This document shows, piece by piece, positions 357-22,911 of a stretch of 64,000 nucleotides of DNA (position 1 is its first letter; each line of letters starts with the position of its first letter). Below the pieces are notes generated by a model, which did no database searches, was not told the DNA's origin, and saw only the letters and a list, made by a program, of their open reading frames with translations. The stretch spans positions 6,324,015 through 6,388,014 of the forward strand of contig OX422204.1 of the NCBI GenBank assembly GCA_949130485.1. Reading direction: 5' to 3'. The position numbers and the translations under genes are program-made. Origin of the DNA: Agelas oroides. Lineage: Eukaryota > Porifera > Demospongiae > Agelasida > Agelasidae.

Positions 357-611
357 GTGGGGTCCCCACCCTCCGTGATCTGAGCCTCATTTCTGTGCAC
401 AACTGGTATCTCCTCGGTCTACAACTGGGGGTCAGCGGGGATGAGCTAGACGAGATTGAAAGAAACTACCCTCGAGATAACCAAATGTGTAAGGTGAAGA
501 TGTTTGGCACCTGGCTAAGAGTGGACACAAGTGCAACATATGGGAAATTAGCCAGGGCTTTGCTTGTTGTTGGGAACAGGAGCCTTGCTGAAGCAATGTG
601 CACTGCAAGAG
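357..611 (+). CDS. Exon 1 visible: Death domain
   Basis: The acceptor is a pyrimidine-rich tract ending CCACAG at 356 and the donor is GTATGT at 612. The frame encodes about 84 residues with Death-fold spacing: an N-terminal helix (PTLRDL), then HNWYLLGLQLGVS, ELDEIE, MFGTWL and a final helix around GKLARALL. Death domains self-associate and recruit adaptors in apoptosis and NF-kB-type signalling. The exon ends in phase 1, as does the codon it starts in, so it is a symmetric phase 1-1 module that can be shuffled freely. The methionine-like start inside this frame is a GTG and is not taken as a real start. Confidence 0.8.
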
Positions 612-3600
612 GTATGTAGCCTTGCTCTCAGGCTCCTTCTCAGCTTTTTTTACATACTGTACATACAGTACAGGCTGGGGTGGAGCTTGGGAACAAGACT
701 AAGGTCACATGAATTTACTTGCATGTGTGTGTGTATACTATAGTGTGACCATGTTGTGGTGGGGCTGGGATGAGGGAGTGAAGTAGATATCTATTGTAGC
801 TGTAGACTTGGATGGAAGTACAACATAGCACCTCAGTGCTGTTAAGGCTGGCTCAGTTTTTTTTGGCGAATCTGTACAAGTGTGCGCACGCCTCTACGCG
901 CGCCTCTGCGTTTAATTAATTACCTAACCGCTTAATTCGATTACATTTGCAATTAGTGTAGAAGCCTTAGGTGTGGTTCCGTGTTTGCCACGTAGGTCGT
1001 GTGAAGTAGGCTATGTAACTTACACCAGTACAAGCTGTGGCGTCGCCATAGCTAGCCTCAGCGAGTGTCTCGTGTGTAAATCTAAATGCATGGAGTACAG
1101 TGGAAAGGATGACAAGCACGTGGCGGTAGCTATTGTTTTTAGTGCTACTATCTCTATGCTAGCGATGGTACAGAGTCCAATTACTATCTGCAACAAGTCT
1201 GACAGCCTGAAGATCGACGAGCTGACCTTTTACCCTCTCTCCTGACTTGATCCAGCACTGAATTTCCTGAAGTGGACCTGAGGGCTCGCTAATAATTCAC
1301 TGTTGACGTACTCGGGCAGCTTTAGGCATAATTAGATTCATATGCGAGCCGCACTGAGCCGGCTGGTAGTGAACAGTGTAACTTTGTGCCATTTTGCGGA
1401 AGGTAGAATGAAGCTATTTTGAGCTGAAATTTTCAACAATTTCTCTGCAGTAGTTGTTGTACTAGAATCCGGTTGGAAACAGCGCACAGATAAATCGTAC
1501 AAGCCAAGGTAAGTGGTAATGCGCAAGTGTTTGTCCGTTTTAGCCCAAAAATCGCCACTTTTCGGCTTTTATTTACTTTATGAAGGGTGCTGTACCCAGT
1601 TTCCAGGCACATTGGTGTTGTCCAGATGGTAAGCTTTCCAACGGTGCCAAAATTGCTGCAATTTACCTGGTGTTTACCATCCGCATTTTGAGAAATAGCT
1701 GCAAACGGTGTGCAATAATTATTCTTTTGTTTACAATGGGCGGGGTCGTTTCCATGGAAACGGAGTGTTTGTGGTTACTCTTTGGGGTATGTAGGACACA
1801 AATATTACCTTTGCTAGACCCAAGAGTGTAGCTGTTAGCAATCAGAACGATTTCAAAACTCCATGCATGCACACTTTTTGAACTAGAAAAAAAAGTTGAG
1901 CCAGCCTTAACTGCACTGAGACTGTGTTGTTTGTAATCAGCTTAATATTTCTTAGTGTTGCATGCTCACATGTTGAAACAGCATTACCCATTACCATGCT
2001 ATATTCCAGGGATTCCACTAGATGATAGTCCAGTAGTAGCTGTAGACTACACTGTGACGGAAGCAGTGGACTACACTGTGATGGAAGCATTGGGTCATCC
2101 CGCAGTTGGAGCAAGCATGACACCTACAGCCATGGGGCACCAGGCTGCAGGTATGTCACTATGTTCGTTTTAATCACTTACTGTGAACACAAACCAAACA
2201 TATGATAACTCATGATTTATGATAATTGTTTTGTTGTGTGAAAGGAAACGTTTATACCCATGGATACATAATTCCGAGTATCCTACCTTTTGCTTTGTGT
2301 TTTTACATGCTTATTGAGTCTGGCGAGTCTATACAGAATAACCATTGTGTTTAGTTTAGTAGCATCTATAGTTCTAGGCTTGTTCCCAGGCCCATCTGAG
2401 AAAGGTGCTTGGTATCCACTGTTCACCATGCACTAAATTAGTCTCGCAAGCCAGACCCACTTCTGCAAAAAAAGGGAAGGGTCTGGTGAACTGCATATAC
2501 AAGCCATGTCACACTGGAATGCAATTAGCTGGATGATGTAACCAGATTTCAAATAATGCACTCTTGAATTACCTGTTGCGGAGTATGCACGCTCCCCGAG
2601 AAGTGTAGTCGAAGTGTTTTTACAACTCCTAGCATAGTAGAAAAGATGTCCTAGCTCTCTTTCACCTTTTTCAAGACTGCTATTGCTACTTAAACAGTGA
2701 CGTAATGCATCATGTGACAAAATACTGCAACATGATTGACCGCACTGTACAGTGCAGCAGGACATGGCTTGTATGCGCAGTTCACCAGACCCTTCCCTTT
2801 CTTTGTGGAAGTGGGTCTAGCTTGCGAGACTAGCACTAAATTAATGCATAAGGCTTACATGAAATTATGCACATGTGGGTGAAATGACAGTCTATGTATC
2901 ATAGTCTCACGAAAGAGTGCCCATGGGCGGAGCACCTTACAAGTCCATCAAAGAGGGGGGTGGGTGCTCTTTTGAGTGCTGCCACATTTAACCACGAAAG
3001 AGCGCCCATGTCATGTTTACTCGATGCCCTCAAAGCAAGTGATTGGACAAACAATAACGTACAACGGAGCCACCAGTGGCTTCGAAGTCAAGGCCTGACG
3101 GCACGCAACACTCTGAATGGCACTATGTCACCGTGAGCTCGCGGTGCGCTCCACCTTATTTATGTCCGTCTACACAAAGCTGCCTTGTAATAACCTTTGG
3201 TGAAGTATAACACGAAATTTTATTACCTCAGATATGCATAGCACTCAAGGCTGTGATTCTCAAACCACTACATTAGCCATGCGAAGCTCGCTCCAGCTCA
3301 TTCGAGTAAACTTTGACCCTATACAGAGGGCTGGGCACTCTTTCGAGGGTGGGCGCTCTTTCACGAGACTACGGTATATGCATGTATTGCCAGCCATGAT
3401 CACAGCTTTGCTGTTGAGCCAGGACAATATGCACATCAACAGCAAAGGGTATAACTTTGTAACACAAATTATGACTTGCCAAAGGCAGCTAGGGAGGAAG
3501 TCCTTCTCATACAAATGCTGTTTTCTGCTTTAATTTGAGTGCCATTGCTTTACCATAAGTTACTGGCTGCTATGCAAAACAGTAGTATCCAGATCTTGCT

Positions 3601-6600
3601 TAAAAATAGCCATTATCAACAGTATGTGATTAAAGATAGAGCAATATGAATGTACCTTACATCACAGCACATGGAGATGACATATTATAGTCCAGAATTC
3701 CTAGAATGTTGGAAAAGTTGAGCACATGTGGATACCAGGATGATTTTTCTAATGGGCATGGGCTATAAGTTCATACTGCTACATAGGACAACAATGTTTA
3801 AACTTCTTACTGCAGTGTCACAGATGGCAGTGTTGACAGTAACTGAGCAGACACCCCCCAGTCTACAAGGAGAGGGAGAAACACAAACAAGTAAGACAAT
3901 GATTATGTCTACGGTGGTACGTTCAGCTGCACATATACATTTTGTGGCTGTTTATTGTCTCCCAGCAGGTTTATCCCCTCCCTCATCCACCTTTTCTGAC
4001 TGCACCTCCCCTCCTCCACCCTCCCTGGAGCCTGCTATAGTTCAGAGAGTGACCTACTCTCACCTTCTCCCACAAGCACACTCAGGTAATGTGGTAGCTA
4101 TGTGTATTGATTTACTGGGCTAGTCAAGTTTGAGAAAGAGCCACAGTCTTCTAGACTCAACTAAGTATTAATAAACATGTTGATAGCTAATCTTGTAGCA
4201 TTTGATCACTGGGTGGCGATGTTGACCGTATCCAACTTTATATGCAATATGTACAGAATGAAACTGGACAATCCATACTGTAAGTAATCAAAAGTTGGGA
4301 CAGTGCAAAGCCTAGCTAGACTGAGGTAGGGAGTCCACTAGGAACATTCGTTGTGTGACTACACTCCTTCACTTCCAGTTTGAGACTATGCTTATTACAA
4401 CTGTGATGTACATTGTGTTTTCCTTGCAGGTCATCAACAGCAGAGTAGACCTGCTCTTTTTGCACATGAGAATTGTCAAGCCATCATGAACAAATTTGCA
4501 AATTTTCAGAGAAGAGTGTGTGACAAATTGTTAACAGATGGAGTTGATACTGAACAAGTTCGACTATTTGTCATGAATCAATTCCCTCCCGGAGATTTTA
4601 TTCCTCCATCTCCAACAAGCTTGACAGAAATGTTCATGGCCATCACCCACCATCGCCTGTGGGATTACTTCCACTACTCCCCACTTGTGAGAATTGCTGA
4701 AGCTTTTGGTGCTGGAGATCATGAAATGGAGGATTGGGTTCAAACCTACAAGCAAGACTTGAAGGCTTACTTATTAGTAAAAACAGTTGAAGAATACATT
4801 GAGGCTGACCTTGACAATGCTGATACTCCTCCAGCAAACTGTGCAAAGTATGATCCTCGCTACTGTACTCCGGTGGAATGGAAAACCAATTTCATTGACC
4901 ACTCTTTGCACTACCTCACTGAGGTGTGGGAATTGTTCTCTTCTCACTATCTCATGCCTGATTCCCCACCGACAGCCTTACTCAATCGTATTCGCAGGGG
5001 CTGTTTTGAAGTGACATGGCTCATCCCATCAGGCTTGATACCCCCATTTATCAAGCAAGTGAAAATTAATGCCGAGTTCTTTCAGCAACATTGTATTCTA
5101 AAAGTAACAGTGGGGAAAGAGTGCATCTATGAGGAAATCACAGAGGGAAACACATCAGTAAGTTTTCTCTAAACCTCTTTTGAGAGCCTTCAAGTAAGGT
5201 TATACACATAACCCAAAAGCCATCGTGTGTAACAGTAGAACCCCGCTATTCCAAACCTCTGAAATGCGGACACCTTGTTTTAATGGACATTTTGCTCAGG
5301 TACAGATTGCATTAACAGCTGTACATTATAAATGTGGATACCTCGCTATTCTGTACAACGAACAGGTTTTTCAGTCCCTCTAGTACCTGGACTGTACAAA
5401 ATTCACTGGATAATGCGGATGCTGGGAGGCTTCTTACGCAAGATTGTCTGGTACCACTGATTCATTTAACTGGACATTAGGCCATAGCAGGGAATACCCA
5501 GTTTCTCATCCTGGAAATGACAAATCAGTGTGAGCTGATGCAGAAGTAACAAAACACAACTGTAAAAACACAAGAAAATGTAGTTGTTGGTACAAGGACA
5601 CAACTAAGTTTCTACTGTGTTTTCCAAAGGCTTCTATGGACAGTATTCAGTGTGGAAGCACATATATAATTGTATTGTGTTTTGAGAGGTGAAACTACCA
5701 AGAAATCGAGCACTTTGTACACAACACTTTGAGTATGGAAGTAATAATAGTCATGTGACATCCGGTATACAAAATGGATTCATGCTTAGAACTCTTGCTT
5801 CATGTTGGAATAAAGAGAATTTAGATGTCATGAGGATTCATCAATAGTAGAATGATCCTCCACCCTTACATCTGACCTGGACCATGTAGACTGCCATAAA
5901 TCATGAGCTTCTTCACCCAAGAGACTGCATTCTGGTTAGTTTTTGTACACCGGATGTCACATGACTATTATTACTTCCGTACTTGCAGTGCTCTGAACAA
6001 AGTGCACCCGTCAAGAAATCTGTATGGGCAGTAGATGAGAAAGAGGATATTTCCCTGCTGTGGCCTTATAATAGCACTGGTACACATAGTACTATCCTCT
6101 GGTTACCCTTTCTCACTAGCGTACAGCAAGGGGGAACTCTGGAACACGCCTTCGTAGCGCTCAACAGCATATATATAAATGCATTGCCACGCCTACCAAA
6201 AATACACTGGAAGCCTCCAAAATATGGATGCCTTTATATTCTGGACACGCAGCGTGTTCCCCATGTGTCCGCATTAGAGGGGTTCCACTGTAGTTGGCAG
6301 CTCTGGGAAAGGACCAAGTGAATTTGTCTCATAGGTGATGAGGCAGTAGAACTGACTTTGGGCACACTTTACTCAAGTTCCTGCAATATTTGTGGCATGT
6401 TATGTGGGTGGATCAAACTTACGCTTCTTGTACCATGCAACATACATACATACATGCATACATGCACAGGAGCCAGAACTTGCCCAGGACAAGGACACTC
6501 TCCCTTCCAAAGTACCACTGGAACCTGGGGGAGGAGCAGAACCTTACGGGAAGCCACAACAAGAGGAGAAATTTGATGACTATTACTGTGAGTTTGTCAA

Positions 6601-9600
6601 ACCACCTCTGAATACGTTTGAAACAGAATGTCCAATATGTAGCCTGGTACTTTGTGATCCACACCAATCTACTTGCTGTGGTACCACCCTCTGCCACTTA
6701 TGTAGTCAACAGATCCAAGCTAAGCACAAACCATGTCCAACATGTGGGGAAGACAACTTCGAAGTGTGTCCAAGCAAGAGCATGAAACGTTCCCTTAAGA
6801 AACTTACGAGAATAGCATGTGAAGGTGGTGACTTCAATAAAGTGTTTAAACTGATTAAAGCTGGTCAGGATCCGAAATATACCCTACAAAGAAGCCTGAA
6901 GCCTCTCCACTATGCTGCATTTCATGGGAACCTGGAGGCGGTGAGAACATTAGTTGAAGAGTATGGTTGTAACCCACGAAGTGCAGGTATGAACAAGTGG
7001 ACTCCACTGCATTATGCTTGTTATGGTGGTCACCGAGATGTAGTGAAGTACCTGGTCACTGAACTAAAATGTGATCCAAAGTTTAAAGCTCAGAGAGGAT
7101 ATCTTCCTCTTCATCTCACTTGTACAGATGAAGTACCAGATAATTACAGTGTGTGCTTGTTTGGTCAATACGGTTCATTGAGGTCTAAAAAACTCACTAG
7201 TGGTCATTATGAAGTTGCAAAGTTCCTCCTCACCGAGGGTGGATGTAATGTAACTGGGTCCAAAAAGTGTGCTCCTCCCCTAGTTGCACATTTAGCCTGC
7301 AGGTATGGAACAGTTGAGTTTGTGCAATTTCTTATTGAGCAGGAAAACTGTGATCCAAACAGCCAAAATAAAGACAAAGATACTCCAGTACATGTAGCTT
7401 CCAAATATGGCCATGTGGAAATCCTGAGGTATTTAGTGGAAACGAAACAGTGTAGTGTGGCGCAGCAAAACCAAGATGGAAATACTCCATTGCATTTGGC
7501 TTGTATGTTTCAATGTATTGAGACCGTACAGTATCTTGTAAGGAAGCAGCAGGACCTTATCATGATCGCCAATCATAAAAAAGAGCTACCTACACATATT
7601 GCCTGCTGTGAAGATTCACTAGGAATAGTTAAGCTTGTCACTTCTCCTTCAAATGTTGCTGCAAAGGCCCATAATGGAGCAACCCCTCTCCATGTGGCCA
7701 GTGCACACAGATTGCTAGATGTCATGAAGTGGCTTATTGAGGAGCTGCACTGTGATCCAGACATAAAAGATGATGGTAGTTTGACTCCATTACATTATGC
7801 ATGTGGTTATACCAGACATTATGAATATCTTTACCACAATAAAGGAAGTGTTCAAGATGAAAACATACAAGTTACAGAGTATCTAGTTGCAAATTGTGAA
7901 TGTGACCCAATGAAGATCAGAGGAAGCGTTTCTCCTATGAAAATAGCATGCAAAGCAGGCAACCTCAAGCTGGTGAAAGCACTTACTTGTGTGAATGTAA
8001 ATTGCATTGACAGTAATGGTGACACTCCATTACATCTGGCTTGCAGAGAGAAACAAATAGAAATTGTAAGATTTCTAATCCAGTTAGAAAAGCACTGTAG
8101 CCAAAAACTTCAGAATAAAAATGGTGAACTTCCCCTGCACATTGCCTGTGCTCATGGATCACTAAAACTGATAAAGCTGGTTAGCGACTGTGATGTAAAT
8201 GTCCCAGCAAAGAGTGGAGATACTCCAGTGCACATAGCTTGTAGGCATTCCCATATTGATATAGTTACTTACCTAATTCAGGATAAACATTCTGACCTGA
8301 ACATAGCAAATGATAAGGGTGAACTACCTTTACATATTGCTTGTGAACAGTCATGCTTGAGTTTAGTGGAATTGGTCAGCAATTGCAATCTTCATACTCA
8401 AGCAAACAGTGGATATACACCAATGCATGTGGCATGTAAGCGTGATGCTATAGAGATAGTCAAATACCTTGTTCAAGAAAAACAGTGTGAACCCAGCCAG
8501 CATCCTCAGCTGTATGATGATCTACTTATACACTGTGCATGTGCTAATGGGAATGCAGAACTTGTTAGAAAACTTGCAACTCCCACTAATGTGAGCACAA
8601 GACACCCTTATGGTTGTAGTGCAATCAAAATGTACCTGTATAGTTATAGCACATCATATGATACCACTGACAACTCTCATTTACGAGATGATGATGATGA
8701 TACACCATATGATAATGCAGTAGGAAACACTCCCTTACATGAAGCTTGCAAATATGCCAACATTGAGGTCGTGGCACTTCTAGTTAACGAATTCCAGTGT
8801 AACCAAAATGTTCCAAATGAGGAGGGGGAGCTCCCACTACATATTGCTTGTTCCAAGGGATCACCTGAAATGGCAAAACTAGTCAGCAACTGCAATGTGA
8901 ACTGCCAGACCATTTATGAGAAAAAGACACCACTACATAAAGCATGTGAAAATGAAGCATTAGAAGTAGTGAAGTACTTGATTCAAGGGAAGGACTGTGA
9001 TGTGGCACTTGCAAATGATGAAGGTGAAGTACCTTTACACATTGCTTGCAGTAAATTGTCTTTGGAAATGGTTCAGCTAGTCACTAATTCAGTTGTAGTC
9101 AGCATAAGAAACTATGGTGGCAACACTCCACTGCATATTGCATGTAAACATGGCCAAGTAGAGTTTGTGAAGTACCTCACTGAGCAGTATATGTGTGACC
9201 CCACAATTCAGAACAGGTCAAAGGAACTGCCACTTCATTACGCTTGCAATCATTCCTTGGAAATTGTAGAACTAGTGAGTGACTGCGACCCCAAATCCAG
9301 TACATCAGGTGGGGTAACACCTCTGCACATTGCTTGCCTACATAGGAAATTAGATATTGTGAGATACCTTATTGAGAACAAAAGATGCAGCCCGGATGTA
9401 GAGACCAATGATGGTCTTACTTTGCTGGACTATGCATGTGGCAATACAAGGCATAAATCCACTGCCTACATGTTAGATCTAGAACAGGAGAATGTCATTG
9501 AAGCAACACAAGCACAAGCTGCAGTTGTAAGGTACTTGATGAACGAGTGTGACTATGATCCAGCAAATGTTCTATCCTTATTTGTAAAAGCCCTCGAACA

Positions 9601-12600
9601 GAACAATCTGAAAATTGCTAAGTTACTTTGCACTAACACTGACATTGTAAACTATTCTGATACAGTAGGCAATACCCCTCTCCATATAGCCTGCATGTGC
9701 AAATGTTTAGAAGTTGTAAAGTTCCTGACTGAAGACAGAAAATGTAATCAACAAGTCAAGAATCAAGCTGGGAAATTACCATTGCATATTGCTTGTGAAT
9801 GTGGTAGCTCACTTGAACTTGTTCAACTAGTTAGCAACTGTGACATAAATGCTCAAACAACACTTGGTGATACCCCATTGCACATAGCTTGTAAACAAAA
9901 AGAACCTTTGTTTGAGGTAATAAATTTCCTGATTAAACAATGCAGGTGTGACCAAACTATTCAAAACAACAGTGGAGAGATACCTCTACACATTGCTTGC
10001 AAACAAAACTCACTTGAAGCCGTGAAGTTATTCAGCAAATGTGATTTCAGTGCTCAAACAGCACGTGGTGACACCCCACTGCACATAGCATGTAGGAACA
10101 ACAATATTGAGTTAGTACAGTGCCTGACTGAACAGTGCCTGTGTGATCAAACCATTCAAAATATAGATGGGGAACTGCCACTGCACATTGCTTGCAGCCA
10201 AGGGTCCCTTGCAATGGTGGAGCTGGTCAGCAACTGTGAAGTAAATGTTCAGTCAACAAACAAACAAACTGCATTGCAGATAGCTTGCAGTTACCCTCAA
10301 CAAAATGATATTGCACACTTCCTTGTTCACAGTAAAGGTGCAGATCCCAGTCTCTTGGATGAAAGTGGCCAAAGCCTTCTTCATGAAGCATGTATGAGTG
10401 GTAGTCTTGCTTTGGTCAAGATTCTTGCTGTTAGTGCCACAGTCCATTACAGAGATATAAACGGAAATACTCCACTTCATATTGCATGCAAAAACAACTT
10501 CTTGAAAGTTGCAACATTTCTGGTTGAGGAATTTCCAACTCAAATCGATCCAAGTATTCAAAATCACAATGGAAATCTAGCTTTGCATATTGCTTGTGGA
10601 AAACGCTCATTAGCTCTGACAAAGCTAGTGAGCAGTTGTGATCCAAATGTGATAAACCATGCTGGAAATACACCGTTACATGTGGCCTGCAAACAGAAGG
10701 CAGTTCAGTGTGTGAAGTACCTAGTTGAAGAAAGGGGCTGTGATGTTTCTGTGCAGAATGGTAATGGAGAACTTCCACTGCATGTTGCTGCCAGTACAAA
10801 ATCTATTAATGCTGTGAAGTTAGTTGGATATTGTGAAGTGAATTCCACAACAGAATCTGGAGATACACCTTTACACATTGCTTGTAGGAAAGGCAACCCA
10901 AAGATTGTGCAGTACTTAGTGAAAGAATTGAATTGTGATCCTGACATTCAAAACAAGTATGGGGAACTGCCTCTACACATTGCTTGCACACAGGCATCCC
11001 TGGAAATTGTGCAGCTAGTAAGTAATTGTGACCCTAATAAGAAAACATCAACTGGTGATACTGCATTACATTTTGCCTGTTGTAGAGCTAGTTTTCAGAA
11101 GGTTTCATACCTCCTAGAACAGGTTAGCTGCAATCCAGATATTCAAAATGCTAAAGGAGAAACTCCATTGCACATTGCTTGTCAAAAACAAGACCTGCAG
11201 ACTATAAAACTCATTGGAAAATTTGTCCATAATCCCAACTTAGTGACACCATCTGGTGACACTCCACTACATGTAGCTTTAAAAAACATCAAAAGATTTT
11301 CCCCAGCAGCAAAAGACATCATAAAATACCTCACCATCACAAGAAGTTGCAATCAGACGATTGCAAACAGTGCAGGAGAGCTCCCTCTTCACCTGGCATG
11401 CAAGTGTTCAGTGGAGTTTGTAGAACTAGTCAGCAAGTGCAACATTAACTCTCAAACAACGGATGGAAACACCCCACTACACATAGCCTGCAAAGAGAAA
11501 AAAACCGACATTGTAAAGTACCTCACTGAGACCAAGCATTGTGATGTCAATATACAAGATCAGAAGGGAGAATCACCTCTGCACATAGCCTGTAAAGAGA
11601 AAAAAATGGAGATTATTAAGTGCCTCATTCAGACTAAGAAGTGTGATCCTAATATACAAAATCAGAAAGGAGAAATGCCCCTGCACATAGCCTGTGGATG
11701 GGGTAATTTGAAAATGGCAAGACTAGTGTGTAAATGCAACATGAATGCAGTAACAACAACAGGTGATACCCCTCTTCATCTAGCTCTTTCTTCAAGTGCA
11801 TACTGTGAAAATGATAAGCTTGTGAAATTCCTCATCTCCAAAGGGCATTGCAATTTTACCATTCGGAATGATGAAGGGAAACTGCCACTGCACATTGCTT
11901 GTGAAAAACACCGCATTAAAACTGTCAGACTTGTTGGAAAATGTGATGTGAATGCAAGAACAAAGTCAGGAGATACTCCCCTACACATTGTTTGCAGAAG
12001 AAGTACTTACTATGTTGACAGTTTCGTACCAGAGATTAAGTACTTAGTGAAGGAGAGACGTTGTAACCTTACAATTCGGAACAATGATAATGAATTACCA
12101 TTGCACATTGCTTGTGAAGAGCACTCCATTGAAGTCATTAGACTTATTGGAGAATGTGATGTGAATGCAAAGACATCATCAGGAGATACTCCTCTACACA
12201 TTGTCTGCAGAAGAAAATGTTACACGTACTATGATAAAAAATTTGAAGCAGAAGTATTGGAAATTGCTAAGCACTTAGTTAAAGAGAGACATTGTGACCT
12301 TACAGTTCAGAACAAGGAGAAAGAATTACCACTGCACATCGCTTGCCAGAATTGTTCCTTAGATGTTGTGAAGTTAGTCAGTGAGTGTGATGTAGAACTA
12401 CAGACTGCTACTGGTGACACACCACTGCATATAGCCTGCAGAAGACTTAGAGGCAATAATGGTATAGTAGATTATCTCCTTGGGCAATGCAATCCCACAT
12501 CTTGTAACAGCGATGGTGAATTACCATTGCACATTGCTTGTAAAATGCACACTAAACTGGAGACAGTGAAGTTACTATGTGACTGTGATATTGATGTAAA

Positions 12601-15283
12601 CACCCGAACATTTCAATCTGGAGATACCCCACTGCATTATGCATGTAGGTATAACTACCACGAAGCTGTGAAGTACCTTATGGAAGAGAAATCTGGCAAT
12701 CCCTCCATACAAAACAGCAATGGACAACTGCCCCTTCACATAGCCTGCACCAATATGTCCTTCAAACTTGTGGAACTACTCAGTAACTATGATGCTGATT
12801 TCAACTGTAGAACACTCACAGGAGACACTCCATTACATGAAGTCTGTAAAGTGAACACTTATTTTTCTGATGAAAGGAAACAAGTGGTTCAGTTCCTTGT
12901 AGAAAAGGAGCATTGCGACCCAAACTGTCAGAACAATGCAGGAATGACTCCTCTCCACTATGCCTGTAAGCAGAATGCAAAGGAAATTGTACTGTATCTA
13001 CTTTCCACTGGTAAAGTGGGACCCTCAGTTACTACAAAGAACTCTGATGAACAAACTCCAGTAATGCTTACCGATGACATTGAAATCATCAGAAAGTTGC
13101 TGAAGCATGGGGCAGACCCTCACCCCTTATACCAGAGGTATGAAGAGTTCTTCAAAGAGTGTTCCTCAGAAACCCCACCACCTACACCATTCAACGTTCT
13201 TGTTCTAGGAAATGCTTCCACAGGCAAGACTACCTTGATTGAATCGCTCAAAGCGGAAGGGGAATCAGTTGTTCAGGACACAAGTCATGATGCACACACA
13301 GCTGGTATCATTCCTAATCGTTTTGAAAGCAAAGAGTATGGTCTTGTTACTTTCTATGACTTTGCAGGCCAGCATGAGTATTATGCAAGCCATGAGGCAG
13401 TGATTCAAACCATTGCAAGGAGCACTCCCCCAGCCATTATACTGCTTGTCAACATTAATGAAAGTGAAGAATACATCATGAAGAAAATACTCTACTGGTT
13501 GTCATTCATTAGTAACCAGTTCCCCACAGTCACAAGCCAACCACACCTTATCATAACAGGAAGCCATGCTGATATAGTAATGGGTCGTGGTGGTAATCCC
13601 CACACTAAGATCAAGTCTATCATTAACTCAATTCAAAGTCAGCTTGAAAACTCCGCTGCAAAGTTTGTTGCCTTCACCACAATGGATTGTCGTATCTCAG
13701 AATCCCCAGGGATAAGTAATCTTCGCCAGCATTTACAAAAATGCTCAAAAGAACTGAAAGGTCATGGAGTGATGAATTTCATGTCCCACTGCTTCCACAT
13801 CTACCTTCTTGAATATTTTCAACATCTTCCAGCTGTGTCTCTCAGCCAAATAACAAGCTGTTTGCTTCAAAAACAGAAGTTCAATCATATTGGTTACTCT
13901 TTATTTTCCTCATATTCTCATCAAATTGAAGACAGTGAGCCTAAAAGACTGTTGCCAACAAAACCTTCAGAGATAGACAGCATTCTTGAGGAGCTTAGTG
14001 AGAAGGGTCATGTTGTGTTTTTGAAGAGTTCTCGTAGACGAGCCAGTTGGGTCATTTTGAACAAAGAAGCTTTGCTAGGAGACATAAATGGGACAGTTTT
14101 TGCTCCAGTAGGGTTTCAACAGTACAAAGATCTAGCATCCAGCTCCAGCACTGGTGTGGTTCCCTTCTCCGCAATAGCAAGACATTTCCCCAAGTTTGAC
14201 CCGAATATGATTGTTAGCTTTCTTTCACACCTTGAATTCTGCCATGTGATTGCAGATGAAGAAGTATTGAACCTCATTGGAGGCAAATCACCCCATCCTA
14301 CTAATAGAAGTGCCTCTTTGGAGCCATATTTCCTTTTTCCTCACTTAGTTAGTATTGACCACCCACAAAACATTTGGAGGGTTGATGATAGCTCTGAATA
14401 CAACTGTAGCTGGTTCCTTTGGTGTTCAGAGGATCACCATTTCTTCACATCACGATTTCTTCAGGTTATTCTCCTACGATTAGCTTTCTCATTTGCTCTT
14501 GACATTCACATCAAAAAGTGCAAAAATCACCCAGCTATCCAGCGCCGTTGTTCCATTTGGAAGAATGGAATCTTATGGTTGAATGAAGATGGCATAGATG
14601 TGTTAGTTGAAATGAGGCAACAGAACCAAGTTATAGCAGTCATGATACGTTGCGATGAAGTGTCAGAAACAAGAATTGAATGCATTCACCTACGATCATT
14701 GGTTATTCAGAAGATTCTGAAGATGAAAGAGGAGTTCTGTTCTAAAGTTTCAACTAAAGAAGCCTTCATCAACCCAGATGAATTGCAGTATCCCCTGAGA
14801 TCTCTAGAAGACTTAACACTCTTTAGCTTGAGTGATGTGGCCAGGTCAGTCATCAATAAAAAGCGTTTTGTCATCTGCAGTGATGGTCGTTGTCGGCTGA
14901 AGCTTGAGAATCTGTTACTCTTTGAGCCCTATGCTGATCTTAGGATAGACATCCTCAAGGAGCTTTTTGATGAGGCAAACAAAGATACAGAAGTGACAGA
15001 CGAGTTTCTGAATCGTATTGCAAACGAGATTGTTAGAAAAAAAGACTCTAAATACATTGACTACAAAAAAGAATGCTTTCTGCAACTGTTTGATCTCCAT
15101 CCTGCATCACTCCAAGAAAAGGGAGCAAAAGGTCCGGTTCAGGACCTGGTTCAAATTTTCCAGCATTGGAGAGATCATAGTAAAGATCGGAGTTATGAAG
15201 GCCTAAGGAGAAAGCTTGATGAATACAGTGTCTTCTGTGGAAGAAACCCTCTGGTGAGATTTTCTCATGCTATATTATCTTAA
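357..15283 (+). CDS. Giant Death-RING-ankyrin-Roc-COR protein gene (six visible exons, 5' end outside window)
   Basis: Exons 357-611, 2010-2150, 3816-3890, 3969-4085, 4430-5157 and 6470-15283 are joined by GT-AG introns. Every junction keeps phase (four phase-1 introns, then one phase-0), giving about 3375 residues. Visible order: Death domain (residues ~5-80), Ser/Pro-rich linker, helical domain (~200-430), RING-like finger (~492-531), about 58 ankyrin repeats (~581-2662), Roc GTPase (P-loop at ~2685), COR (~2880-3135) and a Death-like C-terminus (~3280-3365). By family knowledge, ROCO proteins are GTP-switched scaffolds, and DAPK1 shares the ANK-Roc-COR-Death order. Here a Death domain and RING replace the kinase, so I infer a cytosolic death or innate-immune signalling scaffold. 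The first exon starts in phase 1, so at least one coding exon lies upstream. The 3' end is uncertain: a GTGAGA donor at 15254 could extend the protein beyond the stop at 15281-15283. Confidence 0.85.
832..1920. mobile_element. Non-autonomous terminal-inverted-repeat element in intron 1
   Basis: Inverted ends match over about 33 bp: the left end at 832-864 contains GTTAAGGCTGGCTCA followed by T-tract, and its complement lies at 1886-1920. The interior (about 1 kb) has no recognisable transposase; its short ORFs are unsupported. The element takes up most of the intron at 612-2009. Confidence 0.65.
2010..2150 (+). CDS. Exon 2: linker
   Basis: A symmetric phase 1-1 exon of 141 nt. It follows TATTCCAG and ends before GTATGT at 2151. 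It encodes 47 residues of low-complexity linker with an internal duplication (VDYTVTEA followed by VDYTVMEA). No known domain is seen. It is supported by its splice sites, by phase agreement with exons 1 and 3, and by an open frame throughout. Confidence 0.65.
2439..2832. mobile_element. MITE with ~72-bp TIRs and 9-bp target duplication (Mutator-like type)
   Basis: The ends read TAGTCTCGCAAGC... and ...GCTTGCGAGACTA, with TIRs of about 72 bp including a shared GGGAAGGGTCTGGTGAACTG. The flanks 2430-2438 and 2833-2841 are both GCACTAAAT, a perfect 9-bp target-site duplication. The element is 394 bp with no coding capacity. Long TIRs with 9-bp duplications fit a Mutator-like element. It sits in the intron 2151-3815. 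Confidence 0.85.
2902..3371. mobile_element. MITE with TAGTCTC ends, intron 2
   Basis: The ends TAGTCTCACGAAAGAGTGCC and the complement of TAGTCTCGTGAAAGAGCGCC form imperfect TIRs. Internal copies of the CGAAAGAG motif are present near 2995. No clean target duplication is visible, so the copy may be older. It lies 69 bp from the previous element and shares its terminal TAGTCTC. Confidence 0.65.
3816..3890 (+). CDS. Exon 3: short linker
   Basis: A 75-nt symmetric phase 1-1 exon between CTGCAG and GTAAGA. It encodes 25 residues including TEQTPPSLQGEGETQT, polar and probably disordered. An AG seven bases further in would break the phase, so 3816 is preferred. Confidence 0.55.
3969..4085 (+). 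CDS. Exon 4: Ser/Pro-rich linker
   Basis: A 117-nt symmetric phase 1-1 exon between CCCAGCAG and GTAATG. It encodes 39 residues, Ser/Pro-rich at the start (LSPPSSTFSD, then a run of prolines), consistent with a flexible spacer between the Death domain and the helical domain. The intron before it (3891-3968) is only 78 bp. Confidence 0.6.
4086..4429 (+). other. Intron 4 of the giant gene
   Basis: A 344-bp intron with GTAATG donor and a pyrimidine-rich TTTTCCTTGCAG acceptor. No repeats or other features are seen. Confidence 0.65.
4430..5157 (+). CDS. Exon 5: helical domain of the sponge/cnidarian Death-protein type
   Basis: The acceptor is TTTCCTTGCAG and the donor is GTAAGT at 5158 (phase 0). 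It encodes about 243 residues. The first part looks all-helical, with LWDYFHYSPLVRIAEAFG and a following MEDWVQTYKQDLKAYLL helix. The second part has FIDHSLHYLTEVWELFSSHY and a strand-like tail (CFEVTWLIPSGLIPPFI, ILKVTVGKECIYEE). I recall similar segments beside Death domains in sponge and cnidarian predicted proteins but know no assigned function. The switch to a phase-0 donor marks the border between shuffled phase-1 exons and the giant exon. Confidence 0.75.
5233..6290. mobile_element. pogo/Tc1-like non-autonomous element in intron 5
   Basis: The left end CAGTAGAACCCCGCTATT (5233) pairs with the right end, whose complement begins CAGTGGAACCCCTCTAAT (6290). Both arms continue into AATGCGGACAC. 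The flanks show TA or TAA on each side, as for Tc1/mariner-pogo insertions. The interior is not coding and hosts a second foldback at 5710-6005. Together they make up most of the intron 5158-6469. Confidence 0.6.
5710..6005. mobile_element. Nested foldback MITE, 65-bp arms
   Basis: Arms 5710-5774 and 5941-6005 are inverted copies with few mismatches. Both contain GGAAGTAATAATAGTCATG followed by TGACATCCGG, and outer GCACTTTGT. The spacer is about 166 bp. It is nested inside the larger pogo-like element. Confidence 0.75.
6470..15283 (+). CDS. Exon 6: 8.8-kb exon with RING-like finger, ~58 ankyrin repeats, Roc, COR and Death-like region
   Basis: The exon starts after CATGCACAG, in phase 0 with exon 5. 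The open frame reaches back to 6356, but no better acceptor is seen there. The RING-like finger lies at 6629-6750 (CPIC, TCCG, CHLC, CPTC). Ankyrin repeats fill about 6893-13140 in a regular alternation: a 31-residue type (ELPLHIAC...LVSNCD) and a 34-residue type (DTPLHIAC...KYL...CD...IQN). Roc follows: P-loop GNASTGKT at 13208-13231, switch II DFAGQHEYY near 13358 and a TGSHAD G4-like motif near 13556. COR occupies about 13800-14560. The C-terminus (about 14990-15250) has Death-like helices, including LVQIFQHWRD and YEGLRRKLDEYS. About 2937 residues are intact without a single stop or frameshift, which argues for a functional gene. Confidence 0.9.
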   Translation, partial: EPELAQDKDTLPSKVPLEPGGGAEPYGKPQQEEKFDDYYCEFVKPPLNTFETECPICSLVLCDPHQSTCCGTTLCHLCSQQIQAKHKPCPTCGEDNFEVCPSKSMKRSLKKLTRIACEGGDFNKVFKLIKAGQDPKYTLQRSLKPLHYAAFHGNLEAVRTLVEEYGCNPRSAGMNKWTPLHYACYGGHRDVVKYLVTELKCDPKFKAQRGYLPLHLTCTDEVPDNYSVCLFGQYGSLRSKKLTSGHYEVAKFLLTEGGCNVTGSKKCAPPLVAHLACRYGTVEFVQFLIEQENCDPNSQNKDKDTPVHVASKYGHVEILRYLVETKQCSVAQQNQDGNTPLHLACMFQCIETVQYLVRKQQDLIMIANHKKELPTHIACCEDSLGIVKLVTSPSNVAAKAHNGATPLHVASAHRLLDVMKWLIEELHCDPDIKDDGSLTPLHYACGYTRHYEYLYHNKGSVQDENIQVTEYLVANCECDPMKIRGSVSPMKIACKAGNLKLVKALTCVNVNCIDSNGDTPLHLACREKQIEIVRFLIQLEKHCSQKLQNKNGELPLHIACAHGSLKLIKLVSDCDVNVPAKSGDTPVHIACRHSHIDIVTYLIQDKHSDLNIANDKGELPLHIACEQSCLSLVELVSNCNLHTQANSGYTPMHVACKRDAIEIVKYLVQEKQCEPSQHPQLYDDLLIHCACANGNAELVRKLATPTNVSTRHPYGCSAIKMYLYSYSTSYDTTDNSHLRDDDDDTPYDNAVGNTPLHEACKYANIEVVALLVNEFQCNQNVPNEEGELPLHIACSKGSPEMAKLVSNCNVNCQTIYEKKTPLHKACENEALEVVKYLIQGKDCDVALANDEGEVPLHIACSKLSLEMVQLVTNSVVVSIRNYGGNTPLHIACKHGQVEFVKYLTEQYMCDPTIQNRSKELPLHYACNHSLEIVELVSDCDPKSSTSGGVTPLHIACLHRKLDIVRYLIENKRCSPDVETNDGLTLLDYACGNTRHKSTAYMLDLEQENVIEATQAQAAVVRYLMNECDYDPANVLSLFVKALEQNNLKIAKLLCTNTDIVNYSDTVGNTPLHIACMCKCLEVVKFLTEDRKCNQQVKNQAGKLPLHIACECGSSLELVQLVSNCDINAQTTLGDTPLHIACKQKEPLFEVINFLIKQCRCDQTIQNNSGEIPLHIACKQNSLEAVKLFSKCDFSAQTARGDTPLHIACRNNNIELVQCLTEQCLCDQTIQNIDGELPLHIACSQGSLAMVELVSNCEVNVQSTNKQTALQIACSYPQQNDIAHFLVHSKGADPSLLDESGQSLLHEACMSGSLALVKILAVSATVHYRDINGNTPLHIACKNNFLKVATFLVEEFPTQIDPSIQNHNGNLALHIACGKRSLALTKLVSSCDPNVINHAGNTPLHVACKQKAVQCVKYLVEERGCDVSVQNGNGELPLHVAASTKSINAVKLVGYCEVNSTTESGDTPLHIACRKGNPKIVQYLVKELNCDPDIQNKYGELPLHIACTQASLEIVQLVSNCDPNKKTSTGDTALHFACCRASFQKVSYLLEQVSCNPDIQNAKGETPLHIACQKQDLQTIKLIGKFVHNPNLVTPSGDTPLHVALKNIKRFSPAAKDIIKYLTITRSCNQTIANSAGELPLHLACKCSVEFVELVSKCNINSQTTDGNTPLHIACKEKKTDIVKYLTETKHCDVNIQDQKGESPLHIACKEKKMEIIKCLIQTKKCDPNIQNQKGEMPLHIACGWGNLKMARLVCKCNMNAVTTTGDTPLHLALSSSAYCENDKLVKFLISKGHCNFTIRNDEGKLPLHIACEKHRIKTVRLVGKCDVNARTKSGDTPLHIVCRRSTYYVDSFVPEIKYLVKERRCNLTIRNNDNELPLHIACEEHSIEVIRLIGECDVNAKTSSGDTPLHIVCRRKCYTYYDKKFEAEVLEIAKHLVKERHCDLTVQNKEKELPLHIACQNCSLDVVKLVSECDVELQTATGDTPLHIACRRLRGNNGIVDYLLGQCNPTSCNSDGELPLHIACKMHTKLETVKLLCDCDIDVNTRTFQSGDTPLHYACRYNYHEAVKYLMEEKSGNPSIQNSNGQLPLHIACTNMSFKLVELLSNYDADFNCRTLTGDTPLHEVCKVNTYFSDERKQVVQFLVEKEHCDPNCQNNAGMTPLHYACKQNAKEIVLYLLSTGKVGPSVTTKNSDEQTPVMLTDDIEIIRKLLKHGADPHPLYQRYEEFFKECSSETPPPTPFNVLVLGNASTGKTTLIESLKAEGESVVQDTSHDAHTAGIIPNRFESKEYGLVTFYDFAGQHEYYASHEAVIQTIARSTPPAIILLVNINESEEYIMKKILYWLSFISNQFPTVTSQPHLIITGSHADIVMGRGGNPHTKIKSIINSIQSQLENSAAKFVAFTTMDCRISESPGISNLRQHLQKCSKELKGHGVMNFMSHCFHIYLLEYFQHLPAVSLSQITSCLLQKQKFNHIGYSLFSSYSHQIEDSEPKRLLPTKPSEIDSILEELSEKGHVVFLKSSRRRASWVILNKEALLGDINGTVFAPVGFQQYKDLASSSSTGVVPFSAIARHFPKFDPNMIVSFLSHLEFCHVIADEEVLNLIGGKSPHPTNRSASLEPYFLFPHLVSIDHPQNIWRVDDSSEYNCSWFLWCSEDHHFFTSRFLQVILLRLAFSFALDIHIKKCKNHPAIQRRCSIWKNGILWLNEDGIDVLVEMRQQNQVIAVMIRCDEVSETRIECIHLRSLVIQKILKMKEEFCSKVSTKEAFINPDELQYPLRSLEDLTLFSLSDVARSVINKKRFVICSDGRCRLKLENLLLFEPYADLRIDILKELFDEANKDTEVTDEFLNRIANEIVRKKDSKYIDYKKECFLQLFDLHPASLQEKGAKGPVQDLVQIFQHWRDHSKDRSYEGLRRKLDEYSVFCGRNPLVRFSHAILS

Positions 15284-17790
15284 CAACTGTGTGGACATTC
15301 ACCATGTTGAAATGTAAAGAGAACCTGAATTTAGGTGGCCTTAACTTTTTGAATTAGGTACCTAGCCTCGTTCCCAGGGAAGCGAGGCTATTAGGTACCT
15401 ACATCCAAATTAGTTCCATGGTACCAGAATTGAGGTCCAAGATTAGAAGAGATTTTAATCCTTGCAAAAACATTTCATGTTTCAAATTGCACTCCACAGA
15501 ACATATTGAATGCATACTTCAACTGCTCTAGATATTTTGCTGCTTTGATCCCACACCTTCTAGCTTGCAACATGTTATACTTGGTTGACCTCAAGTGATA
15601 ATTATATAACTACCAAGCATTCTGAGAGCAGGATCCATATTAAAAGCTTGCAGCTGCAGTGTTCATATTTAGCTGGTATAAGAGTATGTAGTTATCATTT
15701 ATCTGTTTCTCAAACTCAGGAGCTGGAATGTATACAGTGAATGCAAGATGTTAGTACCATAACAGAACGAAAGTTTTATATTCATTTGTAGTTTCTGTAC
15801 ATGATTAGTACGTAGACTAGAGTCAGAGTAGCATATTTGGTACCAGTGTACATTGCTAGTATTGGATCTCATTTTTTTAATTGCTGGGATACCATATATT
15901 AACGTGTGCTAGGGGCTAGCTTCAAAACTCTTATTAGTTGTGTTTTGTATAGCATCATTATATCACTATGTGGTAGCTACCTTCAGTGCATGTCTTGTTG
16001 CTGTTAAACAGATTTCGCTGCACAACTTTCTGATTGAGTCCTATTTCTCTCCAGTGTAAGATGACCCACTCATGAGATCAGATCACTCGTCATCAGGTCA
16101 ACTTTCACAAGAACAAAGGAACACAAGATCAGCATGCAGTAGCTATATTTCCTAGCTGTCTAAATCAGGAGTAGCATAACACCAGTATTATATCTAGTAA
16201 CAATTACCTGAGGGTGAGTCACTTGGCCCAGCTGGTTGGGGTGGAAGAGAGCTGTAGGGAGGTAGTATACCTGCTACAAACACTAGGTGAGCTGGAGTCT
16301 GTTCTCCTCAGTTGAACAGTTGTGTGCATGAGTGTTTGTGTACAAATAGCTAACTAGTCTTGTTCCCATGCAGATATTTTCATTCAGTGTAGATGTGGTA
16401 GTTGTACTCAGACCCTCTGAGCTGGAGCATCAGACTGTTCAGTTAAGTGTTTATGATGGAAGTTTGTGTTCCCAGATCCTTTCATACTGTTTCCAATTAC
16501 CTTCCTTCCTGCATGCAATACTAAAACTTGTACGTCTGCACTGGGTTGAGTTTGGAAGTGAGATTAGTACATGTACTACTTTATGAAGGTCTACTTGGCT
16601 AAGATTTTGTCTAGATTAGCTTGTGCTGGTGGTGGTAATGAAACAAAGCCAGGTGAGGTCGTTTTGTCTGACATTCTCCTTTCCCACACACAACTGACTC
16701 CCCTGACTATACATGCAATACTGTATTCCACACTCTCCTAAACTTTCCTCGACTATCCAGAGCATGGGAACTATACTGCAAACCATACAAACACAGTAGT
16801 GAGGATAATGAATCACTCTGTTGTTATTGCTCTTTACCAGAAAGCATAGATTTGAGTTTCACCGGAATCTTTTAATTCCACTTACAATTTGGGCCCTTAC
16901 CAGCCTCACTACGTATAATCCTCGTACCTCAATTTTTACTCCTTAGTCACCTAACTTTAATGAGTGAGTCTGTTAGACGTGGACATTTGTAACTGAATAC
17001 TTGGGACAGTTGCTGAGTACATAAAACTTCATCAAAACTGAGTAACATTGTTTGTGAAGAATCGTTCAATTTCATCATCATATGTACAGTGAACCAAGAA
17101 AAGTGTGTCAAATAGCCAATTACAACATTGTACATAATTTTCTGTCTTGCAGGCAGCCAGCAAATCAAGTGCACTGTGGACTAGTAGAGACAAATATTGG
17201 ATTGAAATACACCTGAAGTTCTTCCCTAAGTTGTTAGAATAACTGTATGCTTGCAATATCATTTGGCAATCACCACCTCCTTTGTTACTTGACTGAAGGA
17301 GAAGCTACTAATGTATGAGATTCCTCTATAAACAGTATCTACACTAACACATTAGGATGTCTTCAATCACAATGATCTTCACAGTTATCCAATTAGTTTG
17401 GAAATCCAGGAATTGTTTGGTAAGTGAAACATGCCAAAGCTTTGCTGCTCAGACGTGCCTCAGTTCTGTTAATATGTCTCTGCTTAGTTGCTGAGGAAGT
17501 CTTCTCTGAGTATATACACTGCATGTACTGTATTTCTTCAATCAGATGCCGTGCCTGCTATGTTATTTGCAGCCCGTTTTTGTGCAGCTACTATCCAAAG
17601 ACGGCGTTTATTTCATTCAGAGCTTCTGATTGTGTTGCATTGCTACTATTTGAGGGCAGCGACCATTTGAGTGCAGCATCTAATCAAAGAAATACTGACT
17701 GAACATTCGGAATTGTGGTTCATATTACAGAAAGATTCATGATCCCAAATGACAGAACTGCAAGGATCAGGATAACCAAAGATAGCAGTG
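15284..17790. other. Region between the giant gene and the receptor pair, little recognisable
   Basis: Apart from the mini insertion at 15363, no coding, RNA or repeat structure could be supported. A 3' UTR or further 3' exons of the giant gene may be here; see the rejected candidates near 16186-16286 and 16377. Confidence 0.4.
15354..15399. mobile_element. 28-bp mini inverted-repeat insertion with 9-bp target duplication
   Basis: A 28-bp palindrome-like sequence (15363-15390) has ends TAGCCTCG and CGAGGCTA and core TTCCCAGGGAAG. It is flanked by identical 9-bp TTAGGTACC at 15354-15362 and 15391-15399. The terminal pattern TAGYCTCG and the 9-bp duplication match the larger MITEs at 2439 and 30859, so it appears to be an end-only remnant of the same family. 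Confidence 0.7.
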
Positions 17791-18130: not shown

Positions 18131-18252
18131 CGGTTTCTGATTTTCACCAAACACACCCAAATTTCCTTAAGTATATAAGTACGTATGTGTGTATGTACTT
18201 TAAGTTACTGTGCATATGTATAGCAGTCTAGCAGATTGTTGTGCTTCCAAAG

Positions 18253-21200
18253 ATGCCTTTACTCTACTGGCTTGTCATCACTGTCCTCAGTATTTCAGTT
18301 GCTAATGTGGTGAGTGAGTCGCAACTTGGTACTAGTGGCCTCACAGCACGCACCATTGTCCCTTCACCCACACCTGATTGCTGGAGTCCATCATGTCTCA
18401 CATGGTCACAGTGTCTGGTAGATCCCTCACAGTGCTTCACTTCTCACACCACTGTCACTATGCTACCTGGGGAATATATCCTCCATGAATATGTTGGAGT
18501 GTCTTGTGTAGTGTCACTCTCCATATATGGAAGTAGGTCTGCAGTCAACGGTAGTGCAAGAGAAAATCATGTGATTGTTAACTGTGAGTACAGAGAGGGT
18601 GGAATTGGGTTCATGAATGTGACAGACTTTTCTCTCTCTGGAATAATAATGGTCAAATGTGGAGTGCAGGGAGTAAACCGAGGTTTCCGTGGTAGGGATT
18701 TACGTTTTTTATATTTTGCACTGCATGTATATGAAGGAATTAATGTCACTCTCAGCTTCTTATTCATAACCGACAGCACTCAAATTGGGCTGCTGTGTGT
18801 AAATCTACTGGGTACTTCAGGTATACATGACTCAGTAATCATTCACAGTAGCTAACTACAGACTGTTGGAGAAGTACATGCGGTGAGAAGTGAAGTGTTC
18901 TGTGGATAGTTGGGAATGTCATGGCAGTAATGTGTTGGTGCTGTTTCTTACTCCATCGATCAAAGTTGCTTCAAATATCTCTAACTTTGTAGTCGAAAGA
19001 ACAAAGATATTGTATGGTGTAAAGTTGATGCCAAAAGATTCACTTTTAATGAGTGCAGGGGTTGCATTTGCCCTCAATCCAGGATTGGAATATGATGTAC
19101 ATATCACTATTGACAAGTGCTATGTTATGTTCAACATTCAACCACGTGCTGCCCATTTATATTTTAGAATATACAGCAGTTGTACCATTTTGGTAAAAGA
19201 CTCCACTTTTGGCTATGCATGCAAACAGATTAATAGAAAGTGACCCAATGGAACTGGTACCTGTCCTTAACTCTGATGGAGGGACATTATACTTTGAAGT
19301 CAGTGACGAGTATAGTGATACAGCTGCAATTTACGTACAAATTGATATGAATGGAGTTTACATAGCTGAGAATGTTGGAGGTGGCCTGTCTGTTTTCCTT
19401 GTTCCACAACTTTCTCAAAATAATGTTCGACTGAGACTTAAGAAAGTTCTAGTAGTACACAATTTCCTTGTCCAAGGTCGCTATGTTGTTCGATTTGACA
19501 AGATCATGACAAGTACTGGTAGTGTGTATATCTCCTTAGAATTAGTTGAGATAAGCAATAGTGTTCTTCTGTTTCAAGATGAAAGCGCATGGAGTCAAAA
19601 ATTATTTGATGTAACATCAGATTCTTGTGGTTTATCATTACAAAATACTGAAGTGCACTTGAAACAGACAGGAATTTTCAGTAACAAGATTCCTGCAGTG
19701 TGTATTTCCAATGGTGACCTGCATTTTCATGGAGTCAATGTTTTCAGAAACAACACAGGAAGACGATGTGGAGGTGCACTTGTCCTCCAAATGAACAGTC
19801 ACATTTACTTACACCGAGGTGCTCAAGTCTACATTTTAGAAAACATAGCACTCGAGCATATGGAGGAGAAATATGTGTTGATGATGGTTCATTTAATGAA
19901 ATATATGATGTGTGCTTCTATCAAATAGTGGATCTTGACATTCTTAACAACAAAGATACTCGTGTGTATTGCAAAGGAAATGTAGCACCAATAACAGGAT
20001 ATCCAATATATGCTGGAAGTGTGACTGAATGTTTTGCTGTAATTGCTGCAAAACAGCAAATAAATCCTGAAAAAATTGCTCGCGAATCACGTGCAATCTA
20101 TACACGTGTTTCGTTTCGACTTCCTGAACTTTTCACACCACTACTTGTATCAAGTGAGTTCTGACCCTCTTACGACTTGTTTTTGCTATTCAGGACCAGT
20201 GCTTATGTGTGATGGGACTGTGGTGCCAAGTATTAGTGTCTACCCTGGACAGACATTCAAGGTGTCAGCAGTAGGATATGGGATTGGAATTTCACCAGCA
20301 AGTGTTAAGAGTAGGATCAATGGTAAATATGAAATATTCCCAGAACTTCAAAGTTTGGGAAATGCATGTGAACCTCTCAAATACACAATCCTGGCTCCTG
20401 AGAACGTATCTGGGATTCTTGTGCAACTGGCAGTGGAAAGATCTTACATTAACATGAAGTATCTGAACCTTACCACCCTAAAGTGTCCCCAAGGCTTCAT
20501 GATACAACAATTTCAATGCAGATGTCATCCCAATGTTGCAACGAGCCTCTGTTCAATGTGACACCAACACTCAGAGTTTCACAAGATCAGGCTCTGTGTG
20601 GATTGGCATGGGGTCTGATGAGGAGGGACTCCTCACTCACATGTACTGTCCTAAGCATACTGCAAACTGCATGAGACTGATCTCAGCCTCACCAGTCCAG
20701 ATGTACAGTGTGCCTTTGGTCACTCTGGAGTTCTTTGTGGAAGTTGTGAGTCTGGTTTAGCTTTGATGCTGGGTTCATCCAAATGTCAGAATTGCTCCAA
20801 TATATACCTGCTTTTAATACTTCCATTTCTCGCTGCTGGTGTGCTACTGGTCATATTACTGGGCAGACTTAATCTCACAGTAGCCTCAGGAACAATGAAT
20901 GGAGTGCTGTTCTATGCCAATGTGGTGAAGGCCAGTAGCAATACACTTATTTCAAACTCTGTGTCAAAGTACTTTACGATCCTCTCTGCATGGCTAAATC
21001 TTGACTTGGGCATAGAAACCTGCTTCTCCAGTCACCTTGACATGTTCTGGAAAGTCCTCCTACAGTTTGCCTTCCCCCTCTACATCTGGCTACTGGTAGC
21101 TGGCATCATTCTCCTGAGTAGATACTCAACTGTAGCAGCTAGACTAAGTGGCAGCAACTCAGTCCCAGTTCTAGCCACCCTCTTCCTCCTCTCATATGCC

Positions 21201-22792: not shown

Positions 22793-22911
22793 ATTGCTTT
22801 GCTGAGTTTCACCAGACATACCCAACTTCCTTTGACTACATAATTGTGTATGAACTGAAGTGGTGCTGCTGTACATATGTAGCCGTCTAGCAGATTGTTG
22901 CACTTACAAAG

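Follow-up and report, generated by a model that had tools for sequence, protein, structure and literature searches.

The question raised by this locus is whether the first quarter of the window (the whole analysed stretch of 64,000 nucleotides, C22:6324015-6388014 in the 259-Mb, 141-contig assembly that was searched) codes for a single giant protein and, if so, where the parts of this protein come from. The initial annotation had described a splice-consistent gene of about 3375 visible residues, in which a DAPK1-like back half is joined to a new front half. The gene model itself was confirmed: six exons on the forward strand (359-15283), all with GT/AG borders, splice in frame into 3375 visible residues followed by one terminal stop, and the joined frame contains no internal stop. 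The phase at the exon end is 1 for exons 1-4 and 0 for exon 5. The model comprises the following features:

359-611, + strand: exon 1, Death domain (Pfam), opening at an acceptor.
612-2009, + strand: intron 1, whose 3' end (from about 1956) aligns with intron 1 of an NLR gene.
2010-2150, + strand: exon 2, chimeric, with the joint between 2020 and 2078.
3816-3890, + strand: exon 3, linker, kept in module paralogs.
3969-4085, + strand: exon 4, linker, kept in module paralogs.
4430-5157, + strand: exon 5, conserved module of 240 residues, without a Pfam match of its own.
6470-15283, + strand: exon 6, RING-like finger, ankyrin array, Roc, COR, C-terminal tail and stop.

Since exon 1 opens at an acceptor, the start codon should lie farther upstream, outside the window; no evident first exon was found in the 800 bp preceding it. 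Exon 6 is embedded in a stop-to-stop open frame of 2975 residues (6356-15283). Introns 1, 2 and 5 harbor inverted-repeat elements (832-1920, with 33-nt inverted ends, 2439-2832 and 5710-6005, respectively).

In the rest of the window, two related genes with apparent multiple membrane helices lie in tandem (18232-21893 and 22891-26661), the second being one frame of 1256 residues and the first spread over several frames. From 37107 to 64000 there is a 192-bp tandem satellite of about 27 kb, the orientation of which flips near 40.08 kb and 56.79 kb; its period is divisible by three and thus produces long spurious open frames.

The visible domain order of the predicted protein is Death, 240-residue module, RING-like finger, about 59 ankyrin repeats, Roc and COR. 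The features within exons 5 and 6 are as follows:

4879-5136, + strand: C-terminal part of the module, proposed TRADD-N domain, on the basis of its motif and its alignment with the NCOA6_TRADD-N protein of the genome.
6629-6745, + strand: RING-like finger, with CCGT in place of CGH.
6798-6808, + strand: fusion joint, where similarity to the RING family stops and similarity to the ankyrin-Roc-COR family starts, the frame being kept.
6890-13030, + strand: ankyrin repeats, about 59 (profile built from the repeats themselves; Pfam ankyrin E = 0).
13196-13567, + strand: Roc GTPase, with GNASTGKT, DFAGQ and TGSHAD (Pfam).
13763-14905, + strand: COR region, with a COR-B match at 14525-14905; the start of the region is an estimate.
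14936-15280, + strand: C-terminal tail, conserved (20 sequences), Death-like at most.

The initial annotation had proposed Death and Roc profile matches as a check on the gene, and both were retrieved. Exon 1 matches Pfam Death with E = 1.5e-7, its best solved relative being the Death domain of RIPK1 (E = 0.0009); Roc reaches E = 3.4e-7 on the isolated piece, above the Pfam cut-off, and 4.9e-5 on the whole frame, below it. The Roc domain also matches a prokaryotic Roco protein (4wnr) and, with the family profile, the Roc chains of LRRK2 (1.9e-12). COR-B scores E = 0.0018 in the protein of the window, below the Pfam cut-off, and down to 3.3e-8 in its relatives (9 of 28 members). The two features that define a Roco (Roc-COR) protein, a Roc GTPase and a COR region following it, are both present. 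With a profile made from the repeats of the protein itself, 59 ankyrin stretches are recognized at E <= 1 and 56 at E <= 0.01, compared with the approximately 58 counted initially; along the array (6890-13030), a longer repeat type often alternates with a shorter one, which has about three residues fewer.

The ligand scheme of RING fingers is C3HC4. The finger of exon 6 departs from it, with a threonine at the expected histidine ligand and an extra adjacent cysteine, and its Pfam score is weak (E = 0.042, under the cut-off). In the 12 paralog fingers that were read, CCGT or CCGN occurs in five and the histidine in seven. As for the C-terminal tail, no Pfam Death match was found in 20 members, and the best Death chain among solved structures is that of FAS, with E = 0.65; the Pfam families hit by this tail were taken for chance matches. 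Within the part of the gene visible in the window, Pfam scans of exons 1, 5 and 6 did not retrieve any kinase. No NACHT was found in the Pfam scans of the gene either, whose NLR-like part consists only of exon 1 and the beginning of exon 2. According to these data, the Death domain, ankyrin array, Roc and COR of the original domain list hold, the RING is weak, and the Death-like end is not significant.

Viral and prokaryote sequence collections yielded no relatives. The origin of these parts was sought in the genome itself, which is plausibly that of a sponge judging by its gene content. Scoring covered the best 150 of 546 candidates for Death, 150 of 165 for RING, 150 of 156 for the module, 60 of 97 for Roc-COR and 103 of 291 for NACHT. 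The exon-5 module recurs in at least 123 matches at no fewer than 117 places, the RING piece in at least 146 matches and the Death exon in at least 150. When 29 module paralogs were inspected with flanks of 1.5 kb, a RING homolog was found downstream in 13 and a Death domain upstream in eight (with the exon of the window as query), to which a second Death type adds five more. Within 6 kb of the 117 listed module places, the window included, Death lies upstream of 33 and downstream of two, and RING downstream of 22 and upstream of four. Moreover, the residues opening exon 6 recur at the start of the RING exon in paralogs such as L045, L053 and L054. Because the paralogs keep the module/RING order and share this start of the RING exon, the order of exons 3-6 represents a property of the family.

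The possibility that exons 1-5 and exon 6 belong to separate genes was rejected on the basis of the paralog order (Death, exon-5 module, RING) and of the two in-frame chimeric exons described below, which argue for the one gene of the initial annotation. The idea of a new front half did not survive the genome search: the module is recurrent, and excerpts of the literature on Amphimedon (PMC8195603) describe a unit of Death and TRADD-N.

Beyond the RING, the module paralogs harbor a Cys/His-rich stretch, in a comparison made among paralogs other than the closest RING ones (L045, L052, L053 and L058); in both of the loci that were scanned there, a MATH domain follows (L059, 4.6e-28; L061, 2.5e-18). 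Among the matches listed, at least six for the module (five places) have NACHT within 15 kb downstream, and none has it upstream. The module loci in question, with a NACHT exon 4-13 kb downstream, are C3:15341811, C3:16791068, C3:15138406, C3:14962542 and C2:16908668; a module-RING-NACHT family, in which the same front end meets NACHT too, is possible.

What does the module represent? No match to Pfam TRADD-N (PF13820) was found in the 29 members scanned. The best Pfam family, TPR_BSK1_C, hits 11 of the 29 (best E = 0.0017) and was taken for chance. According to excerpts of Kaur et al. (PMC8195603), 357 Amphimedon proteins carry one to three Death-superfamily domains, then TRADD-N, then a C-terminus that varies (ankyrin repeats or SH3-LRR being the commonest), and the TRADD-N motif consists of a tiny residue and a serine at the beta2-beta3 turn, with cysteine as an occasional substitute. 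In the alignment of 29 module sequences, with strand positions assigned by eye, a glycine is invariant and the next residue is cysteine in at least 90%. One protein of the genome, C14:5494980, scores as PF13820 (NCOA6_TRADD-N) above the cut-off (2.3e-5), and it can be aligned with the module along 46 columns at the motif (a single hhalign comparison, E = 0.00035, probability 37%). Scored with the module profile, it was matched or exceeded by none of the 1363 reported shuffles (of 2000) and ranked first of 2096 tiles with 9.7 bits, an unrelated tile being close at 9.2 bits. The motif and the C14 protein, taken together, indirectly suggest that the module likely contains a TRADD-N domain. The single NCOA6_TRADD-N place of the genome (L072, C14:5494860-5495340) continues into a repetitive Ser/Thr-rich tail within a frame of 765 residues.

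The dN/dS ratio is 0.34 over 2648 codons against the ankyrin-Roc-COR relative on C20 (C20:4742125; dS about 0.4). For exon 5, compared with five paralogs, it is 0.17-0.27; for the RING piece, compared with four, 0.22-0.38; and for the Death exon, compared with that of the locus L071, 0.25. These values are pairwise and do not divide the period preceding the fusion from the one following it, so that selection after the fusion is not separable.

The first joint lies in exon 2. The region 364-619 shares 84% DNA identity (blastn) with the Death exon of L071, which harbors NACHT in a downstream exon (E = 1.5e-25); among the matches listed, NACHT lies at most 4 kb downstream in eight of the nine closest Death paralogs, two of them sharing the same NACHT exon. 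L071 likewise aligns with the opening ten bases of exon 2 and with the 3' end of the preceding intron, and of 633 window tiles only the tile at this position scored so high. From 2079 onwards, donor included, exon 2 shares 73% identity with the final part of a Death-like exon in the module paralog L047. Given the L071 match of its start and the L047 match of the rest, exon 2 can be read as the start of an NLR exon fused to a truncated exon of the module family. Elsewhere on the same contig, a Death exon 82% like exon 1 (C22:6844001-6844255) has no NACHT within 6 kb among the matches listed and may be another reused NLR exon.

Alternatively, exons 1-2 might be an NLR leftover that splicing does not connect with the other exons, in which case the actual protein would begin elsewhere and comprise module, RING, ankyrin, Roc and COR. 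Among the matches listed, exon 1 most resembles the Death exons of NLR genes; other module paralogs use a different Death exon, and exon 2 is chimeric. However, the chimeric exon retains its acceptor, an open frame and the donor of the family, in a phase that fits exon 3, and exon 1 is constrained relative to its NLR paralog and still scores as Death; we consider this explanation unlikely.

The second joint lies in exon 6. The three farthest-reaching matches to the RING family end, at the DNA level, at 6787, 6795 (L045, 75%) and 6798 (L052, 71%). The C20 copy matches 6808-16520 with about 81% DNA identity and one weaker stretch within, continuing beyond the stop codon. That gene possesses an ATG of its own beside the ankyrin array; in the 1.6 kb before the array no module or Death match was found, nor any RING finger core, the RING query matching only from its residue 110, past the finger. 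On that part of C20 the RING list contains one match, which is situated downstream and is limited to residues 106-137.

Ahead of its RING, exon 6 contains no methionine, so that an upstream partner is needed if the RING is translated. A methionine does occur after the RING, at 6782. Translation might instead begin at this methionine, giving an ordinary ankyrin-Roc-COR protein, with the front half untranslated or a separate unit; the ATG of the C20 relative just ahead of its array would fit such a start. The RING piece is nevertheless conserved, the acceptor of exon 6 and the residues after it match the RING exons of the paralogs, and the frame is open across the joint, so that this start seems to us even less probable than an NLR leftover.

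Could the joints be artifacts of assembly? All three parents are multi-copy families, in which a mis-join is conceivable, but both joints are in frame within exons, and the parts differ from the closest relatives examined at 16-27% of DNA positions, where a mis-join of the listed copies would give near identity. An assembly chimera is thus very improbable. A neutral, non-functional fusion that is open by chance deserves somewhat more weight, though slightly less than a start at 6782: family copies do decay, as on C20, where the copy carries a frameshift close to its end and the tandem neighbour is broken, while here a frame of 2975 codons and five spliced exons are intact at a dS of about 0.4 from C20.

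We therefore favour, with a probability of about 0.85, the reading that the gene is a composite of three families of the same genome, namely Death-NACHT, Death/module/RING (with TRAF-like members) and ankyrin-Roc-COR, with in-frame joints in exons 2 and 6. Judged by sequence comparison, neither half is new; what is unusual is the fusion of both halves. A list of domains alone would miss this fusion, because each half is ordinary once its family has been seen. Roc-COR occurs in the genome in at least 75 matches at 60 or more places, and only one of the 60 listed places, that of the window, is preceded within 40 kb by module, RING and Death. A distant Roc-COR match (C3:17672156-17673961) falls in an open frame of 5971 residues, larger than the fusion gene.

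DAPK1 has a kinase before its ankyrin repeats and a C-terminal Death domain. It shares with the gene of the window ankyrin, Roc and COR in that order, according to excerpts of PMC6337361; the window gene differs in that no kinase was found, the ankyrin repeats are far more numerous, the C-terminal Death is not significant, and Death, module and RING stand in front. The absence of a kinase match and of a significant C-terminal Death, together with a resident family at no fewer than 60 Roc-COR places, indicates that calling the back half DAPK1-like went too far. The resident ankyrin-Roc-COR gene on C20 is similar from the array to past the stop, and it starts at its own ATG, without the front half in the stretch examined. 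The Death/module/RING genes of the genome share the order of these three parts, but continue with the Cys/His-rich stretch, and with MATH in L059 and L061, where the window gene has its ankyrin array; the TRAF plan (RING, then zinc fingers and MATH) differs from it at the same point.

The sponge NLRs (Death-NACHT), the likely source of exon 1, have a similar plan of sensor, switch and output; in the window gene Roc-COR stands in for NACHT, and the ankyrin repeats are the likely sensor. The NCOA6-clade TRADD-N proteins of Amphimedon resemble it in their N-terminal Death-superfamily domain(s), conserved domain and variable C-terminus, often ankyrin, although neither Roc-COR nor RING is named among the sponge C-termini in the excerpts of PMC8195603. 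In the actiniarian NG1 and NG3, immune-type domains are likewise fused to Roc-COR, the combinations being Roc-COR with TIR, or with kinase, Death and TIR; the partners are different, and the excerpts of PMC5094078 name no RING or ankyrin array. The domain architecture of the window gene was not found in the open-access literature.

How such a protein might work can be sketched from its families. Ankyrin arrays are protein-binding, Death domains associate with domains of their own kind, and intact RING fingers recruit E2 enzymes. Roc-COR proteins are nucleotide-responsive and dimerize via COR, according to excerpts of PMC6337361. In principle, the ankyrin array would bind a partner or a foreign ligand; GTP binding by Roc would alter the COR-mediated dimer; the altered dimer would cluster the Death, TRADD-N-like and RING-like parts; and these, once clustered, could recruit death-fold adaptors and ubiquitin machinery. 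Roc-COR would then switch in place of NACHT, so that the protein would amount to an NLR of the Roc-COR type. By analogy with known families, the most economical reading is a scaffold gated by GTP, with death-fold and putative ubiquitin outputs; the link between death-domain and ubiquitin signalling that had been suggested at the outset is supported as a possibility. This mechanism, a GTP-switched ankyrin sensor with Death, TRADD-N-like and RING-like outputs, is put forward tentatively, at somewhat less than even odds, and composite anatomy and mechanism together form the best joint explanation, one that we hold with moderate confidence.

A broader and more doubtful suggestion is that this sponge swaps switches under a Death/TRADD-N/RING front: MATH at some loci, perhaps NACHT at others, and, in the window gene, Roc-COR combined with a giant ankyrin sensor. 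If this were true, the gene would be the GTP-driven equivalent of an inflammasome-type NLR receptor, its ubiquitin output lying in the same chain. The gene also raises a testable question, namely whether a Roc-COR GTPase may do the work of a NACHT switch. For the immune receptors of early animals, an origin by domain shuffling is generally assumed. In this gene one joint can be placed within about 60 bases and the other within about 10, and the genome still contains relatives of the three parents; the birth of a giant signalling protein may thus be read directly.
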